Positions 27,453-36,909 of a stretch of 41,478 bases of DNA are shown here, piece by piece. The notes below the pieces were generated by a model, which worked only from the letters and a program-made list of their open reading frames with translations, made no database searches and was not told the origin of the DNA. Made by a program: the position numbers and the translations under genes. Positions within the stretch are counted from its first letter, which is position 1, and each line of letters opens with the position of its first letter. The stretch is from Deltaproteobacteria bacterium (lineage in GTDB: Bacteria; Myxococcota_A; Polyangia; Haliangiales; Haliangiaceae), in the NCBI GenBank assembly GCA_013812655.1, contig JACCTC010000060.1, positions 1 to 41,478 of the forward strand, written 5' to 3'.

Positions 27453-29210
<1,758 letters not shown>

Positions 29211-29272
29211 GGCGCAGAACCTCCAAAATCCACGCGGCCGGGCGACGGCTCCGTGGTCTACTCGTCGTGCAG

Positions 29273-30721
29273 ATGACGCGTCGGTTGTTGTTACTCGCCC
29301 TGACGGTCGCCGCCCCGATGGTTTTGCGTGCCGGCACGGCCGACGCCGAGCCACGCGGCCCGCGCATCACGATCCCGACCCCGCTCGACGGCTTCACGCC
29401 GCACGCGGCGATGTCCAAGGTGCTCTACCTCGAGCGCTGCCGCGGCAACTGCACGGTGACGAAGTCGAACGTCAACAACGCGCAGACCAACGAGTCGACG
29501 ATCCCCGGCCAGGCCGGCATGCACGTGCTCACCGAGTTCGTGAACCGGGATGGCGTCGCCGGCGCTGCGGCCGACGCGGAGTGGGCCGCGCTCGTCCAGT
29601 GCCTCCGCGAGGTCTACTCGCCGTTCGACATCCAGATCACCGACACCAGGCCGACGAGTGGCACCTATCACATGGCGATCGCCGCCGGCCTGCCGCGCCA
29701 GATCGGCTTTGGCGATGACGTCCTCGGCGTCGCGCCGCTCGCGAGCAACTGCAGCCCGCAGGACAACGTGATCTCGTTCTCGTTCGCGAACGCGCACGGC
29801 CCGACGCTGCGCGGCGAGAACCTGTGCTGGACGGTGGCGCAGGAGAGCGCGCACGCCTTCGGGCTCGATCACTCGTTCAAGTTCCTCGACGGTCGCTCGG
29901 CATGCAACGACCCGATGACCTACCAGGTCGACTGCGGCGGCCAGCGGTTCTTTCGTAACCAGGCCGCGAAGTGCGGCGAGTACGAGGAGCGTGCGTGTCG
30001 CTGCGGGCCGACCCAGAACTCGCACACCAAGTTGCTCGGCACGTTCGGCGCCGGCACCGCGATCACCGGCAACCCGACGGCGATGATCACGACCCCCGCG
30101 GACGGCCAGCCGCTCGGCGTCGTGGTCGGCGCGAGCGCCGGATCGAAGCGCGGCATCGCGCGGGTCCAGCTGCTCGTCAACGGCTTCCCGTGGGCCGAGG
30201 TGCCGGGCACGAAGTTCGGCCCGAACGGCCAGGCCAACCCGTCGAGCTACGGCCTGATGCTGCCGGCCACGCTGCCCGACGGGATCAGCGACCTCGTGGT
30301 CCGCGCCTACGACGATCTCGGGGCGTTCACGGACTCGCCGACGGTGACCCGCACGAAGGGGGCGCCGTGCACGACCGCCGAGACCTGCGCGCGCGGCCAG
30401 CGCTGCGATGCGGGCAAGTGCTTGTGGGACCCGGCGGCCGGCGAGATCGGCGACTCCTGCGAGTATCCGCAGTACTGCAAGAGCCTGCGCTGCGAGGGTA
30501 CGGCCGAGCGCAAGATCTGCAGCGATGCCTGCAATCCCGATGGCGAGAACACCTGCACGGACGGCCTGTCGTGCATCGAGACTGGACCCGGCACCGGCAT
30601 CTGCTACTTCGACGAGGGCGGCTGCTGCAGCGTGGCGTTCGATCGCCGACTGCCGTGGGCACATCTTGGGGTCTCGGCGCTGGTCGCAGCGCTCCTGATG
30701 CGCCGTCGCCGCCGACGGTGA
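29273..30721 (+). CDS. secreted metzincin-like protein with MYXO-CTERM-like tail, paralogue 1
   Basis: This 482-residue protein has a signal peptide (1-27, ending GTADA). Its N-terminal half contains QESAHAFGLDH starting at Q190, which matches the metzincin zinc motif HExxHxxGxxH except that the first His is Gln. It is followed by DPMTY, like a Met-turn. Next come an Ig-like region (about 260-360) and a Cys-rich segment with GAPCTTAETCARGQRCDAGKC-like pattern. The tail GGCCSVAF plus a hydrophobic helix and seven Arg resembles the MYXO-CTERM sorting signal for surface anchoring. First of three tandem paralogues. Protease activity is doubtful because of the lost His. Confidence 0.8.
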   Translation: MTRRLLLLALTVAAPMVLRAGTADAEPRGPRITIPTPLDGFTPHAAMSKVLYLERCRGNCTVTKSNVNNAQTNESTIPGQAGMHVLTEFVNRDGVAGAAADAEWAALVQCLREVYSPFDIQITDTRPTSGTYHMAIAAGLPRQIGFGDDVLGVAPLASNCSPQDNVISFSFANAHGPTLRGENLCWTVAQESAHAFGLDHSFKFLDGRSACNDPMTYQVDCGGQRFFRNQAAKCGEYEERACRCGPTQNSHTKLLGTFGAGTAITGNPTAMITTPADGQPLGVVVGASAGSKRGIARVQLLVNGFPWAEVPGTKFGPNGQANPSSYGLMLPATLPDGISDLVVRAYDDLGAFTDSPTVTRTKGAPCTTAETCARGQRCDAGKCLWDPAAGEIGDSCEYPQYCKSLRCEGTAERKICSDACNPDGENTCTDGLSCIETGPGTGICYFDEGGCCSVAFDRRLPWAHLGVSALVAALLMRRRRRR

Positions 30722-30744
30722 GCAGGCGCCATCACGCCCCCCGC

Positions 30745-30790
30745 TGACGTGTGACGAATCCTGCTGACGCCTCGACGCGTCATGTAGTAT
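30745..30790 (+). promoter_or_regulatory. candidate promoter with repeated TGACG words before paralogue 2
   Basis: TGACG occurs at 30745, 30752 and 30765, followed by TAGTAT (30785-30790), a possible -10 element 9 bases before the ATG at 30800. The very short leader makes this assignment weak, though leader-poor transcripts occur in GC-rich bacteria. Confidence 0.25.
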
Positions 30791-30799
30791 CCCGAGCCC

Positions 30800-32323
30800 A
30801 TGTTTCGTCGATCTACGCCAGCCTGGCTTGCCCTCGCGTCCTCGGTCCTCTGTGGTCTCGGTAGCGCGTCGGTGGCCTCCGCCGAGAGCGGACCGAACGC
30901 GGTCTTCACGCTCGACACGCCCATCTCCACGGTCCAGTCGCCGACGGTCGGCCCTCGCCGTGATGTCATCGTCGTGCCGCCGCGGCCCGGCGATGCGGCC
31001 GCGCTGGTCTCGCCGATCATCTACCTGAACCGCTGCACCGGCGGCTGTACCCTGAAGACCGGTAGCTCGGACGACGCCGTGATGAACACGACGCCGCTCG
31101 TCGAAGCCGACACCAATCTCTCGGCGTTCACCCACGGCGAGCAGGCGTGGCAGGATCTGTTGACGTGCATGCGCGAGATCTACTCGCCGTTCGACGTCCA
31201 GATCACCGACGCCCGCCCCGGTGCGGGCACGCAGTATCACATGGCTATCGTCGCCGGCACGTCGACCGAAGCGAACAAGCCCGGAACGCTCGGCGTCGCG
31301 TTCGTCAACAGCGACTGCTCGCCGCGCAACAACACGATCTCGCTCTCGTTCGCGAACTCGCACGGCGGCACCGGCGCGTCACTCACGCAATCGCTCTGCC
31401 ACACGGTCGGCCAGGAGAGCGCGCACGCGTACGGCCTCGACCACGCGTTCAAGTTCTCGGACGGTCGCTCGACCTGCAACGATCCGATGACGTACCAATC
31501 CGACTGCGGCGGTCAGCGGTTCTATCGCAACGACTCGGCGAGCTGCGGCGAGTTCGCGGCCCGCGCGTGCGGCAGCACCGGCGCGTGCGGTTCCTCCCAG
31601 AACGCGCACGCCAAGCTGCTCACCGTGTTCGGCCCGTCGACCGCGGCACCGCTGATCACCCCGCCCACCGCGATGGTCACCACGCCCCAGGCCGGCGGCA
31701 CGCTCGGCGCGATCGTCGCAGCGCAGGCCGGCAGCAAGCGCGGCGTCGCGAAGGTCGAGCTCCTGCTCAACGGCTTCAAGTGGGCCGAGGCGAAGGGCGC
31801 GCAGTTCGGCCAGAACGGTCAGCCAAACCCGTCGTCGTACTCGATGATGGTCCCGACCAGCGTCCCGAACAGCAAGATCGATGTCGTCGTGCGCGCGTGC
31901 GATGACCTCGGCAAGTGTACCGAGTCGGCGCCGGTCCTCGTCACCAAGGGCGCGCCGTGCACCGCCGCCGAGATGTGCGCGAAGGGGCAGAAGTGCGAGG
32001 ACGGCAAGTGCTTCTGGGATCAGCCCGCCGGCGAGCTCGGCGCGGACTGCGACTACCCGCAGTTCTGCAAGAGCCTGCGTTGCGAGGGTCCCACCGAGGC
32101 GCAGGTCTGCTCGCAGGGCTGCGTCCCGGGCACCGGCGATAGCTGCCCCGACGGCCTCGAGTGTCTCGAGACCGGGCCCGGCCAGGGCATCTGCTACACG
32201 GCCGCGGACGACGGTGGCGGCTGCTGCAGCGTCGGCGGAGATGACGGTCCTGCACCTTGGGCGCTCCACGGCGGCGTTGCCGCGCTGCTCATCGGCCTTC
32301 TCGTGCGCCGGCGGAGGAGCTGA
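30800..32323 (+). CDS. secreted metzincin-like protein with MYXO-CTERM-like tail, paralogue 2
   Basis: This 507-residue protein has a signal peptide (about 1-28, ending SVASA). It shares the domain order of its neighbours: a zincin-like domain with QESAHAYGLDH (Q205, H209, H215), Met-turn-like DPMTYQ (M230), an Ig-like region (about 285-390) and two Cys-rich modules. The tail is GGCCSVGG, a hydrophobic helix and VRRRRS. The Gln for His change is the same as in paralogues 1 and 3, so it is not a sequencing error. Conserved spacing of Cys residues (NRCTGGC, LCHTVGQE, DCGGQRFYRN, CGEFAARAC) suggests many disulfides. Likely exported and surface-anchored; substrate or ligand unknown. Confidence 0.82.
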   Translation: MFRRSTPAWLALASSVLCGLGSASVASAESGPNAVFTLDTPISTVQSPTVGPRRDVIVVPPRPGDAAALVSPIIYLNRCTGGCTLKTGSSDDAVMNTTPLVEADTNLSAFTHGEQAWQDLLTCMREIYSPFDVQITDARPGAGTQYHMAIVAGTSTEANKPGTLGVAFVNSDCSPRNNTISLSFANSHGGTGASLTQSLCHTVGQESAHAYGLDHAFKFSDGRSTCNDPMTYQSDCGGQRFYRNDSASCGEFAARACGSTGACGSSQNAHAKLLTVFGPSTAAPLITPPTAMVTTPQAGGTLGAIVAAQAGSKRGVAKVELLLNGFKWAEAKGAQFGQNGQPNPSSYSMMVPTSVPNSKIDVVVRACDDLGKCTESAPVLVTKGAPCTAAEMCAKGQKCEDGKCFWDQPAGELGADCDYPQFCKSLRCEGPTEAQVCSQGCVPGTGDSCPDGLECLETGPGQGICYTAADDGGGCCSVGGDDGPAPWALHGGVAALLIGLLVRRRRS

Positions 32324-32325
32324 TC

Positions 32326-33762
32326 ATGCGAAGCCTTCCGGTCGTCGCCAGCCTGTTCCTCGCGACGATCGGCGTGGTGCCGGTGGCATCCGCTTCGCCC
32401 GAGCTGCCGACGACGGTGAGGATCCCACCGCCGGTTGGCGAGCACGCCGCTGCGGCGCAGGTGCTGTACTTCAACCGCTGTCGTGGCGGCTGCACGGTCA
32501 CCGCGAGCGCCACCAACGACGCGCGCTCGCACCTGTCGACGATCCCGCAGGGCGCGCCCGGCGAGATGTTCACGCTGACGGAGTTCCGCCACGGCGACGT
32601 CGTGTGGAACGGCCTGATGCAGTGCCTGCGCGAGGTCTACTCGCCGTTCAACGTCGTGATCACCGACGAGCTGCCCGCCCCGGGCGTCGCGTACAACGAG
32701 AACATCGTCGCGGGCATCGATAACGAGATCAACTACCCGGGCGCTGGCGGCGTCGCGCCTGTTACCTCCGATTGCAGCCCGTACAGCTACGTCTCGTCGT
32801 TCACGTTCGCGAACGGCTACGGCCCGGACGTCTACCAGCTCTGCTACGTCGCGGCGCAGGAGACCGGTCATGCGTTCGGCATGGCCGACCACGCGTGGGC
32901 GTTCATCGCCGACGGCCGCTCCGCGTGCAGCGATCCGATGTCGTACCGCAACGATTGCCTGTCGAACGGCCAGCGGTTCTTCCGCAACGAGGCCGCGACC
33001 TGCGGCGACTTCGCCCAGGAGAGCTGCAACTGCGCCGGCATGAACCCGCACTCCAAGCTGCTCGCCGCGCTCGGCGCGGGTACCCCGATCACGCCGCCGC
33101 CGAACCTCGCGGTGACCCAGCCGGTCGCCGGCACGCAGGTCACGAACGGCCAGATGGTGATCTCGACGGCGTCGTCGCAGCGCGGCGTCAAGATCATCGA
33201 GCTCTATCTCAACGGCTTCAAGTGGGGCGAGAAGAAGGGCGTGCCGTTCGGTCAGACCAACCAGCCCGAGGCGGCGTACGCGATCCCGATGCCAGCCGAC
33301 GTGCCCGGCGGCGTGATCGACATCGTCGTCGTAGCCAAGGACGACATCGGCATCACGACGACCGCGCCGACGATCACGGTCATGAAGGGCGCCCCGTGCA
33401 CGTCCGCCGACAGCTGCGCGAAGGGCCAGAAGTGCGAGGAGGGCAGGTGCTTCTGGGATCCCGCGAGCGGCGAGATCGGTGACACCTGCACCTATCCGCA
33501 GTTCTGCCTGACCGGCACCTGTATGGGCCCGAGCGCCGACGAGCAGATCTGCACGCAGAGCTGCATCCCCGGCGTCGGTGACAGCTGCCCGATGGACTAC
33601 TACTGCCTCGCCACCGGTCCATCGAGCGGCGCGTGCTGGCCCGAGGGAGCGGAAGAGGCAGGCTGCTGCAGCACGTCCGACGGAGCGGTGACGGGTAGCG
33701 CGCTGCTCGCGTTCGGCCTGCTCGCGATCCTCGCGCCTCGTCGTCGTCGCCGCCGCGCCTGA
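32326..33762 (+). CDS. secreted metzincin-like protein with MYXO-CTERM-like tail, paralogue 3
   Basis: This 478-residue protein has a signal peptide (about 1-24, ending VASAS) and the same domain order as paralogues 1 and 2. Its zinc-like motif reads QETGHAFGMADH from Q178, so the first ligand is again Gln and there is one extra residue before the last His; DPMSY provides the Met-turn. The Ig-like region and Cys-rich modules follow, then GCCSTSDG, a hydrophobic helix and RRRRRR. The ATG lies 2 bases after the stop of paralogue 2 with GGAGGAG 6 bases upstream, so these two are co-transcribed. It converges on the receiver gene with 1 base between stops. Confidence 0.82.
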   Translation: MRSLPVVASLFLATIGVVPVASASPELPTTVRIPPPVGEHAAAAQVLYFNRCRGGCTVTASATNDARSHLSTIPQGAPGEMFTLTEFRHGDVVWNGLMQCLREVYSPFNVVITDELPAPGVAYNENIVAGIDNEINYPGAGGVAPVTSDCSPYSYVSSFTFANGYGPDVYQLCYVAAQETGHAFGMADHAWAFIADGRSACSDPMSYRNDCLSNGQRFFRNEAATCGDFAQESCNCAGMNPHSKLLAALGAGTPITPPPNLAVTQPVAGTQVTNGQMVISTASSQRGVKIIELYLNGFKWGEKKGVPFGQTNQPEAAYAIPMPADVPGGVIDIVVVAKDDIGITTTAPTITVMKGAPCTSADSCAKGQKCEEGRCFWDPASGEIGDTCTYPQFCLTGTCMGPSADEQICTQSCIPGVGDSCPMDYYCLATGPSSGACWPEGAEEAGCCSTSDGAVTGSALLAFGLLAILAPRRRRRRA

Positions 33763-34133: not shown

Positions 34134-34892
34134 TCAGTTGCCGGAGCCGGCGGGCGCCGCCGAGCCAGCAGGCGCGTCGGAGCCAGCCGCGGAACCAGCG
34201 GCCGCAGCCGGAGCTCCGCCATCGGGGTTGACGGCGATCTGCTGCGGACCGATCTGATCGCGCGCAGCCTTCGCGCAGTTGCGGATGATCTCGTTGTCGA
34301 CGTTGCTCGGACCGCCGCGCACCTGGAGGATGCACTTGGTGTCCTCGTCGAAGAACCGGTAGACGAACACGTCGTCGACGCCCTGGGCGACGACCTGCAG
34401 GCACGCATACGTGCCCATCGACTCGTCGTCCCTGTCCTTGCGCGTCTTGCACTTGCCCTTGAAGCGCTCCGCGTCCTCGATCGTCCAGCAGAACGCGGTG
34501 ACGTTGCAGAGCTCGTCGCCGGCGAGCACGCCGAGCCGGCCTGCCTTCTTGAGCAGCGCCTGCTGCTCCTTCTCGTTCAGCCGCTTGCCGCCGCGGTGGA
34601 ACGAGCACGATGCCGCCGCCTCGGGCTCGGCCTTCGTGATGTCCTTGACCTCGAGCGGCTCCTTCTCGCCGATCGCCGCGCCCATCGCCGTGGCATCGAG
34701 CAGCTGGGTGCACGGGATGCGCGACTGACCAGGGACCGGCGGCCGGATCGTCTTCGCGACGCCACCCGCGGCCTCCTTCTCCTTCTGCAGCCGCTCGGCC
34801 TCGCGCTTGGCTTCCTCCTCGCCCTCCTTCGCACCCTTCGTGCAAGCGCTGCCTACAAGACCGATGGCCATGATCGCGATGAATGCCCGCAT
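34134..34892 (-). CDS. putative lipoprotein, unknown function (distant DUF3558-like resemblance)
   Basis: The 252-residue product starts with a lipoprotein signal peptide ending VGSAC (Cys17). A charged Lys/Glu-rich helix follows (about 20-45), then a folded region containing Cys residues in IPCTQLL, AASCSF, ELCNVTAFCW, GKCK and DTKCIL. The pattern IPCTLLDxxxxxxxLG...xSCSF is reminiscent of DUF3558 lipoproteins, but the match is weak. The C-terminal 30 residues are a Gly/Ala/Ser/Pro-rich low-complexity tail. It would sit in the inner or outer membrane. The receiver gene follows 7 bp downstream. Confidence 0.65.
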   Translation of the reverse strand: MRAFIAIMAIGLVGSACTKGAKEGEEEAKREAERLQKEKEAAGGVAKTIRPPVPGQSRIPCTQLLDATAMGAAIGEKEPLEVKDITKAEPEAAASCSFHRGGKRLNEKEQQALLKKAGRLGVLAGDELCNVTAFCWTIEDAERFKGKCKTRKDRDDESMGTYACLQVVAQGVDDVFVYRFFDEDTKCILQVRGGPSNVDNEIIRNCAKAARDQIGPQQIAVNPDGGAPAAAAGSAAGSDAPAGSAAPAGSGN

Positions 34893-34957
34893 TGCGGCGC
34901 CGACCGTAACATGTGCCCCGCTCGACTGTCAGATCGCCGCGCGATGGTCGGCGCACG

Positions 34958-35131
34958 ATGACGCCACACGAACCGACGTCCCGCATGCAGCTCGTCGCGT
35001 TGCAGACCAAGGTCGACCGCTACGAGCGCGCGTTTCAGCTGCTCGCACAGCGCCATCCCTTGCCCCGCGATCCAGCTTCGCGCCCGGGCACGTTCCCGCT
35101 CTCGCGCTGCTGGATGACACCAGCGTCCTGA
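34958..35131 (+). pseudogene. probable remnant of a PD-(D/E)XK nuclease paralogue
   Basis: This 57-residue frame reads MQLVALQTKVDRYERAF near its start and TFPLSRCW near its end. Those pieces align in order with LGVLQAKVDLFEKGF and SFPLSTCW of the intact nuclease gene at 35190-35693, while the part between, which carries the catalytic PFD and QVK residues, is missing. It is therefore best read as an internally deleted duplicate lying just upstream of its parent. The alternative, a small unrelated protein with chance similarity, cannot be excluded. Confidence 0.45.
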
Positions 35132-35161
35132 TCGCGAGCGATTTCGCGCGCGTCTGGCTGT

Positions 35162-35183
35162 CAGATCCCGGGCCTAGGATCTG
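35162..35183. promoter_or_regulatory. inverted repeat CAGATCC-N8-GGATCTG before the nuclease gene
   Basis: A perfect 7+8+7 dyad ends 6 bases before the nuclease ATG at 35190, so it would overlap the promoter or leader. It could be an operator or a leader hairpin limiting nuclease translation. Confidence 0.4.
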
Positions 35184-35189
35184 CGGGCG

Positions 35190-35693
35190 ATGCTTGTCCA
35201 TCACACGAAGAACAAGGGCGATCTGGGGGTCCTGCAGGCGAAGGTGGATCTCTTCGAGAAGGGGTTCATCATCCTCATGCCGCAGACCGAGCATGCTCCG
35301 TTCGATCTCGTCGCGTATCGAGACGAACGGTTCTATCGGGTGCAGGTCAAGTACCGGGCCGCCGTGAGGGGGCAGCTCTCGTTTCCACTCTCCACCTGCT
35401 GGGCCGACCGCCATGGCGTGCACACCGTGCCGATCGACAGGCGTTCGATCGATCTGCTCTGCATTTATTGTCCCGATACTCGCCGCTGCTACTACGTGGA
35501 TCCGCGCGAGGTTGGTCGTGGGGTTCAGTTGCGGATCGCGCCGCCACGAAACCAACAGAAAAAGCGAATCCGTCGAGCCGAGGACTACCTGCAGATTCCG
35601 GCGTCGGTACTGGGAGTTCCTGCCGGTTCTGCCAATCCACTTGAGAGCCAGGACGACGTGAGGCAGAGTTCTGGGCCGACGGTTCCCGCCTAG
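35190..35693 (+). CDS. PD-(D/E)XK nuclease of the group I intron homing endonuclease type (PDDEXK_5-like)
   Basis: This 167-residue protein resembles the I-Ssp6803I/PDDEXK_5 family. It begins TKNKGDLGVLQAKVDLFEKGF, then has PFDLVAYRD (D39) and VQVKYR (Q52 and K54), the PD...(E/Q)xK catalytic pattern. Homing enzymes of this family cut tRNA genes to spread self-splicing introns. Here the gene is free-standing: its TAG stop shares its G with base 1 of tRNA-Arg(TCT), and no intron is present. The C-terminal 45 residues are basic and Pro/Gln-rich and may bind DNA. A remnant paralogue and a 7-bp inverted repeat lie upstream. A host role, such as repair or a domesticated homing enzyme, is possible but unproven. 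Confidence 0.8.
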   Translation: MLVHHTKNKGDLGVLQAKVDLFEKGFIILMPQTEHAPFDLVAYRDERFYRVQVKYRAAVRGQLSFPLSTCWADRHGVHTVPIDRRSIDLLCIYCPDTRRCYYVDPREVGRGVQLRIAPPRNQQKKRIRRAEDYLQIPASVLGVPAGSANPLESQDDVRQSSGPTVPA

Positions 35694-35770
35694 CGCCCAT
35701 AGCTCAGGTGGATCAGAGCATTCGATTTCTAATCGAAATGTCGCAGGTTCGAGCCCTGCTGGGCGCACCA
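35693..35770 (+). tRNA. tRNA-Arg (anticodon TCT)
   Basis: The cloverleaf is complete. The 7-bp acceptor stem is GCGCCCA/TGGGCGC, the D-arm GCTC...GAGC, and the anticodon stem TTCGA/TCGAA with loop TTTCTAA gives anticodon TCT (reads AGA/AGG). The variable loop is ATGTC and the T-arm GCAGG-TTCGAGC-CCTGC. The discriminator base is A and CCA is encoded. The first base overlaps the stop codon of the upstream nuclease gene, so the tRNA promoter must lie inside that gene or the two are co-transcribed and processed. Confidence 0.97.
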
Positions 35771-35853
35771 TGACTCGCTGAGCTTCACCGAACTGCGGGC
35801 CCGACGCAGCCCTGCTCGACCGCCTGGCATGCACGGTGCTTTGTTGAGCTCAC

Positions 35854-36909
35854 ATGGCGACACACGTCCACAAGCGGTCGGTCACCGACGTGCTTGCCGA
35901 CGAGCGCGAGCCTGCGCCCGCGCCGCACACGGAGCCGCGTTCGGTGAGCGACGTGCTCGCCGACGAGCGCGAGCGCACGCCCGAGAAACCAGCGCTCACC
36001 GAGGAAATCCCAGGCGCCCACGCCGGATTCTTCACGAAGGCCAAGCTGTTCCTCAAGCGGCTGTTCTCCGACGCGCTCGACGACAACATCGACAGCGTCG
36101 GCGCGATGATGGCGTACTACGCGGTCCTCGCGATCTTTCCGATGCTCGTGTTCATCGTGACGATCGCGATGCTCGTGCTCGACGACAGCACGGTCCAGCA
36201 GGGCGTGTCGATGGCGACCAGCACGATGCCGTACGCAACCCGCCAGCTGGTCGCCACCAAGGTGCAGGCGTTCATGGACACCGCCGGCGCGGGCTTCGCG
36301 ATCGGTGGTGCCGCCTTCGCGCTGTGGGGCGCGTCGCGCGGTACCGTCGCGCTGTCGATGGCGCTGAACTCGGTGTTCAGCAAGAAGGAGACGCGGCCGT
36401 GGTGGAAGCGTCAGCTCATCGCGATCGCGGTCACCGTTGGCGTCGCGTTCTTGATCGTCGCCGCGCTGGGCCTCCTCGTGATCGGCCCGATCGCCGGTCA
36501 CTTCGTCGCCGACCGGATCGGCATGGGCGCCACGTTCGACGTCGTGTGGGGCGTCGGCCGCTGGCTCGGCGCCGGCGTGCTGGTGATGGTCGTCTGGGCG
36601 ATCCTCTACAAGTTCCTGCCGAACACCGACGCACCGTTCCGGATCTTCACGCCGGGCGCCGCAGTCGGGGTCATCCTGTGGCTCGGCATCAGCCTGCTGT
36701 TCGGCGTCTACCTCAAGTACTTCAATAACTACGAGGCGACCTACGGCGCGCTCGGCGCCGGCATCATCTTCCTAACCTGGCTGTGGCTGTCGAACATCGC
36801 GATCCTGTTCGGCGCCGAGATCAACGACGTGCTCGCCGACTTCCGCAAGCACGAGAGCGAGGCCGCCGCGCAGCTCGCTACGGAGACGAAGCCGCCTGCG
36901 ACCAAGTAG
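35854..36909 (+). CDS. YihY/BrkB-family inner-membrane protein
   Basis: The 351-residue protein belongs to the YihY/virulence factor BrkB family (once misnamed RNase BN). Six hydrophobic helices occur from about residue 85 to 325, with the family segments MMAYYAVLAIFPML, WGASRGTVALSMALN, YKFLPNTDAPFRIFTPGAAVGVILW and NNYEATYGALGAGIIFLTWLWLSNIAILFGAEIN. Its role is unclear; transport or envelope functions have been suggested. The cytoplasmic N-terminus contains a duplicated motif, RSVTDVLADERE and RSVSDVLADERE, about 22 residues apart, that echoes DVLADFRKHE near the C-terminus. Start by position; the Shine-Dalgarno is weak. Confidence 0.9.
   Translation: MATHVHKRSVTDVLADEREPAPAPHTEPRSVSDVLADERERTPEKPALTEEIPGAHAGFFTKAKLFLKRLFSDALDDNIDSVGAMMAYYAVLAIFPMLVFIVTIAMLVLDDSTVQQGVSMATSTMPYATRQLVATKVQAFMDTAGAGFAIGGAAFALWGASRGTVALSMALNSVFSKKETRPWWKRQLIAIAVTVGVAFLIVAALGLLVIGPIAGHFVADRIGMGATFDVVWGVGRWLGAGVLVMVVWAILYKFLPNTDAPFRIFTPGAAVGVILWLGISLLFGVYLKYFNNYEATYGALGAGIIFLTWLWLSNIAILFGAEINDVLADFRKHESEAAAQLATETKPPATK

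Follow-up and report, generated by a model that had tools for sequence, protein, structure and literature searches.

I-Ssp6803I, the homing endonuclease of a group I intron in the Synechocystis tRNA-fMet gene, targets the anticodon region of that tRNA, going by the title of Bonocora and Shub 2001 (cited in PMC3984707). Free-standing and collaborative homing have been reviewed (PMC3984707); in intronless homing of the SegF kind, the gene of a free-standing endonuclease lies linked to its target and is copied by break repair, and the targets concerned are mainly phage protein genes. SegB of T-even phages is a free-standing, tRNA-associated homing endonuclease of the GIY-YIG type, which cuts within tRNA genes, is tied to many tRNA isotypes and is found in phage only (PMC13096335).

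The nuclease gene considered here lies on a 41,478-nucleotide contig of a Deltaproteobacteria bacterium of the Myxococcota (JACCTC010000060.1, assembly GCA_013812655.1), analysed over its whole length and referred to as the window. It resembles I-Ssp6803I (PDB 2ost) in PDDEXK_5 profile, fold and active-site motifs and, as far as the title quoted above defines the I-Ssp6803I target, would also share with it a target in a tRNA anticodon region. Unlike I-Ssp6803I, it stands free beside an intact, intron-free tRNA and falls in a distinct Arg(UCU) clade. Like SegB it is a free-standing enzyme tied to tRNA genes, but it is a PD-(D/E)XK protein associated with one isoacceptor on a bacterial chromosome. 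As in intronless and collaborative homing, it is linked to its putative target gene and would be copied by break repair, but here the target would be a tRNA gene whose stem is apparently diversifying in response. The literature we searched, with most subscription papers lying outside the search, contained no account of the Arg(UCU) clade, of a unit with a rescue tRNA or of hypervariability in this stem. We suggest that the gene probably encodes a free-standing homing endonuclease of the I-Ssp6803I family (PDDEXK_5) directed at tRNA-Arg(UCU), most likely at its anticodon arm.

The nuclease and the adjoining tRNA gene

All three elements that the original prediction placed at 34958-35770, namely a deleted paralogue, a homing-type PD-(D/E)XK nuclease and an intact tRNA-Arg(TCT) without an intron, were recovered there (Table 1). 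The nuclease matches the Pfam profile PDDEXK_5 (PF11645) with an E-value of 1.2e-36 (126.3 bits against a cut-off of 26.1), and its predicted structure (pLDDT 83) has I-Ssp6803I as top fold match (2ost, E 7.9e-8, TM 0.61/0.68). The same enzyme was the sole match, a weak one, when the PDB was searched with the single window sequence. D39, Q52, K54 and the HHTKxKGD motif are kept, which places the protein in the PDDEXK_5/I-Ssp6803I family, whose association with a tRNA gene it shares. The gene is single-copy in its genome, and its intact ORF keeps every invariant residue; the protein is constrained, because third-position changes predominate between the window nuclease and that of the congener G007 (differences of 0.31, 0.20 and 0.51 at codon positions 1, 2 and 3). 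The upstream relic, without the middle of the nuclease domain, aligns in frame to the nuclease with a score of 56, the best among 1000 shuffles being 48. A plasmid search for the nuclease gave no match.

Table 1. Features of the nuclease locus in the window
Feature	Positions	Strand	Basis
Lipoprotein-like gene, divergent, conserved left neighbour of the site	34134..34892	-	Congener synteny
Nuclease relic, degraded, internally deleted	34958..35116	+	In-frame alignment to the nuclease
PDDEXK_5 nuclease ORF, free-standing, 167 aa	35190..35693	+	TAG stop at 35691-35693; fold match to I-Ssp6803I
Conserved nuclease core, residues 1-137 (HHTKxKGD, FD39, QVK52-54)	35190..35600	+	Residues invariant among 31 aligned relatives; end at P137 throughout the family
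Nuclease C-terminal tail, read-through into host DNA 5' of the tRNA	35601..35690	+	Resembles upstream flanks of congeners' empty sites
Putative tRNA promoter within the tail: TTGAGA (35641-35646), 17 nt, CAGAGT (35664-35669)	35641..35669	+	
tRNA-Arg, anticodon TCT, intact	35693..35770	+	ARAGORN, Rfam
Hypervariable anticodon arm TTCGA-TTTCTAA-TCGAA, inferred target region	35721..35737	+	Intron point in relatives, phage insertion point
BrkB/YihY-family membrane protein, usually to the right of the site	35854..36909	+	PF03631; synteny

The predicted overlap of nuclease and tRNA was also found, the G of the TAG stop being base 1 of what is the single tRNA-Arg(UCU) gene found in this genome (assembly 93.5% complete). 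We read this overlap as incidental read-through, because the conserved core lacks its own stop codon and the stop falls in different places in different genomes: split between tail (TA) and tRNA (G) in the window, on tRNA bases 8-10 in G007 and G004, as a TAA directly 5' of the tRNA in G012, and in the D-loop in G029. These differing places rule out a design role for the overlap. Residues 154-167 of the tail are disordered in the predicted structure (pLDDT <50). It is possible that RNase P cleavage would leave an mRNA without a stop codon. The promoter-like motif within the tail keeps the same spacing at occupied and empty sites of congeners; a scan with a stricter promoter consensus did not report it. 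The nuclease is not intron-encoded in the window: the tRNA is intact, no group I intron was found at the Rfam gathering score, and a search for tRNA halves flanking the gene found none.

A 301-aa reverse ORF (34929-35834, minus strand) covers both tRNA and nuclease and is probably spurious; its stretch PAGLEPATFRLE is antisense tRNA. The lipoprotein-like gene had no match in a Pfam scan. Elsewhere in the window, three related proteins that look secreted are encoded in tandem at positions 28454-33762; their C-terminal ends are rich in Cys and run into an Arg-rich tail, which by eye resembles MYXO-CTERM. The two of them that were scanned had no Pfam domain above the cut-off.

Relatives inside and beside tRNA-Arg(UCU)

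Relatives were gathered from GTDB-type genomes, IMG/VR and phage records. The original prediction asked whether homologues lie at random locations, and they do not: tRNA-Arg(UCU) accompanies 91 of the 93 distinct Arg-clade loci, 26 of which lie inside an interrupted tRNA and 65 of which adjoin one at a median distance of 67 nt (L075, 198 nt from its tRNA, was added by hand to the adjoining group). For ten intron-borne loci the label was assigned manually, ARAGORN having either misread the anticodon or failed to assemble a tRNA; nearly all of these labels are backed by the exon sequences. L010, which ARAGORN labelled Pyl, has the CTTCTAA loop. The two exceptions (L037, L039) are both degenerate, and the 3' half of a tRNA forms the end of L037. 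The closest relatives in or near this tRNA span seven other bacterial phyla as well as phages. The nuclease lies upstream of the tRNA in Myxococcota; in cyanobacteria and phages it follows the tRNA by ~65-70 nt, and in a Mycobacterium MAG the two are divergent. Judged from these sequences, the adjacency of the clade to tRNA-Arg(UCU) is far beyond chance and, the tRNA gene being the constant partner, it is the most likely target.

Where the nuclease is intron-borne (Bacteroidota, Acidobacteriota, Ignavibacteriota, Rhodothermota and Woeseiaceae), an intron of ~630-720 nt lies between U34 and C35 (CCTT^CTAAG). Seventeen such introns, aligned without the ORF, share a group I fold in which the U.G of P1 is conserved and P3 covaries. 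An Rfam group I search of the ORF-bearing introns gave no match at the gathering score because the ORF splits the model; their group I identity is settled by the covariation together with an ORF-less intron in tRNA-Arg(UCU) of Cytobacillus gottheilii (L023:4447-5414, Rfam Intron_gpI, E 8.6e-6). In that Cytobacillus locus a free nuclease stands 189 nt downstream of the ORF-less intron, which is the collaborative-homing layout. The same layout is seen in Nostocaceae (L142-L158), whose free-standing nucleases form a separate clade close to I-Ssp6803I: in most loci they adjoin tRNA-fMet genes, which mostly contain group I introns lacking an ORF. Distant phage homologues lie 3' of tRNA-Met in Kuttervirus and a Vibrio phage; tRNA-Met does not precede the nuclease in the EFP01 homologue. 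In the tree, the Arg clade is set apart from the fMet clade (support 100/99), the Myxococcota nucleases form one clade (98/88) that groups, not firmly, with intron-borne Acidobacteriota (80/91), and the intron-borne and free states have switched at least five times.

A second, divergent PDDEXK_5-like protein (L104, from 1044, in G012), 30% identical to I-Ssp6803I and with a long, helix-turn-helix-looking N-terminal extension, lies 134 nt from tRNA-Arg(CCT) in a congener and is possibly another isoacceptor-specific line. On one viral contig (L132:5424-5724) ARAGORN reports a permuted tmRNA-like gene adjoining the nuclease.

The strongest support for action of the clade at the anticodon comes from five IMG/VR loci of cyanophages (L120, L122, L129, L133 and L134), where a 568-bp unit consisting of a complete tRNA-Arg(UCU) and a nuclease, and beginning TTAGAACAACC, sits between C35 and U36 of the resident tRNA-Arg(UCU). 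Identity is 92-100% among the units and, for the most part, close to 50% among their flanks. When the flanks are joined, L129, L133 and L134 regain a tRNA-Arg(TCT); in L120 and L122 the halves are mismatched and none was restored. Empty counterparts of these sites exist (L204-L208), and uninterrupted matches to the flanks occur in S-CAM4, S-WAM2 and S-RSM4 (tRNA-Arg then tRNA-Leu) and in Syn1 and S-RIM44 (tRNA-Arg then tRNA-Thr). A search for group I introns at the unit loci found none. The tRNA carried by the unit has a different anticodon stem from the resident one (TTCGC/GCGAA against, for example, ACTGC/GCAGT). Synthetic Cleave-and-Rescue gene drives combine a nuclease with a functional, recoded version of its target gene. 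The cyanophage unit likewise joins a nuclease to a recoded, functional version of the gene that the unit interrupts, which suggests a cleave-and-rescue logic; it differs in being natural, tRNA-based and inserted in the target itself, and its cutting and rescue are putative. The complete form of such a unit is present in these five loci and absent at the window.

Site occupancy and the anticodon stem in the genus

Fifteen tRNA-Arg(UCU) loci were read in the window's genus, most of them flanked by the lipoprotein-like and BrkB-family genes. Ten are empty and five are occupied, and two of the five nuclease copies are broken (G001 and G004, as opposed to G000, G007 and G012). In a different genus (G029) the nuclease lies between tRNA-Pro(TGG) and tRNA-Arg(TCT), and in an even sample of Myxococcota the PDDEXK_5 family occurs in 3 of 379 genomes. 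The gene is therefore found outside introns, linked to its predicted target and with empty alleles in relatives, which is the layout of free-standing homing. One proposal of the original prediction had been a free-standing homing enzyme that was fixed beside its target. Its first part is strongly supported, given that the same tRNA is abutted or interrupted in many phyla and in phages and that the genus itself has both empty and decayed sites; the word fixed does not fit 5 of 15 sites with two of the five copies broken.

The anticodon stem of tRNA-Arg(UCU) has 14 different sequences in these 15 genus members, with 75 of 75 pairs intact. Its mean pairwise difference is 0.65 (bootstrap 0.50-0.68), compared with 0.06 for the acceptor stem, and six other tRNAs of the genus have anticodon-stem differences of 0 (three tRNAs), 0.014, 0.11 and 0.26. 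Across family f14 (~30 genera), where the nuclease is rare as judged from the Myxococcota sample, the figures for tRNA-Arg(UCU) are 0.25 for the anticodon stem and 0.29 for the acceptor stem. This hypervariability in the genus points to selection at the recognition site of the nuclease, and may reflect host escape from an enzyme that recognises the anticodon arm. The stems of the genus bearers are unusual: A31-U39 together with U32 occurs in three of the five and U32 in none of the ten empty loci, a post hoc contrast on small numbers; G004, with its broken nuclease, has a canonical C31-G39/C32 arm. Immunity through tRNA recoding is not general, because bearers and non-bearers in Nostocaceae can have identical tRNA-Arg(UCU), which rules out general resistance by tRNA substitution in that family. 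Short, decayed nuclease remnants lie directly 3' of tRNA-Arg(UCU) in the Nostocaceae loci L178, L195 and L197, in whose genomes a profile search gave no nuclease.

Proposed homing, its alternatives and what it would mean

Under the homing explanation, the enzyme would cut tRNA-Arg(UCU) genes that lack the nuclease, and repair of the break from the donor locus would copy in the nuclease with the linked donor tRNA, itself immune through an anticodon stem recoded by compensated changes. The nuclease might then decay or be lost, leaving the site open to reinvasion. We infer DNA cleavage, the exact recognition sequence, the immunity of the resident tRNA and the direction of gain and loss. More tentatively, nuclease and linked recoded tRNA-Arg(UCU) may constitute a selfish cleave-and-rescue unit of natural origin, which cyanophages show explicitly and of which the genus keeps a reduced form, nuclease plus immune tRNA; such a unit would have driven an arms race and so scrambled the anticodon stem. 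This is an arguable possibility to which we lend slightly less than even credence. Comparative sequence evidence gives strong support for the proposed target and for the proposed arms race.

A domesticated nuclease that serves the host, for instance by regulating or protecting the tRNA locus or by warding off phages that carry tRNA-Arg(UCU), would agree with the intact ORF and protein-level constraint, and with the single gene-tRNA distance kept by many species of heterocystous cyanobacteria. In the genus, however, presence is sporadic and copies have decayed, so that domestication, which had also been proposed for this locus, finds no backing there, nor did any emerge for protection or processing of the tRNA locus. 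No partner gene lies nearby, the neighbours being the lipoprotein-like and BrkB-family genes, and PADLOC returned no match, on which ground a defence system was rejected. We consider a host function unlikely. An inactive, decaying passenger that adjoins the tRNA by descent only could account for the two broken congeneric copies and the relic in the window, but hardly for an intact ORF in which every invariant residue is present and third-position changes predominate, and we regard it as very improbable.

The gene might instead have outlived a mobile group I intron that was deleted, leaving the nuclease beside the tRNA. The grouping of the Myxococcota clade with intron-borne Acidobacteriota, the repeated switches of state, and the ORF-less intron next to a free nuclease in Cytobacillus speak for such a past. 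Against it, neither an intron nor a remnant of a tRNA half is present at the window, and the gene lies outside the tRNA and 5' of the promoter region, recurring as an insertion at other Myxococcota sites. This descent seems quite improbable to us; it is compatible with the homing explanation, because it covers the origin of the gene and not its persistence.

If homing at tRNA-Arg(UCU) is correct, a selfish nuclease family would have specialised on a single tRNA isoacceptor in phages and in distantly related bacterial phyla, moving between intron-borne and free states, and its action would account for hypervariability in a normally stable tRNA helix. The phage unit would then be the equivalent in nature of synthetic cleave-and-rescue drives and would represent persistence in an essential RNA gene without splicing. 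Together these loci would offer a directly testable system for the coevolution of homing genes and their targets.
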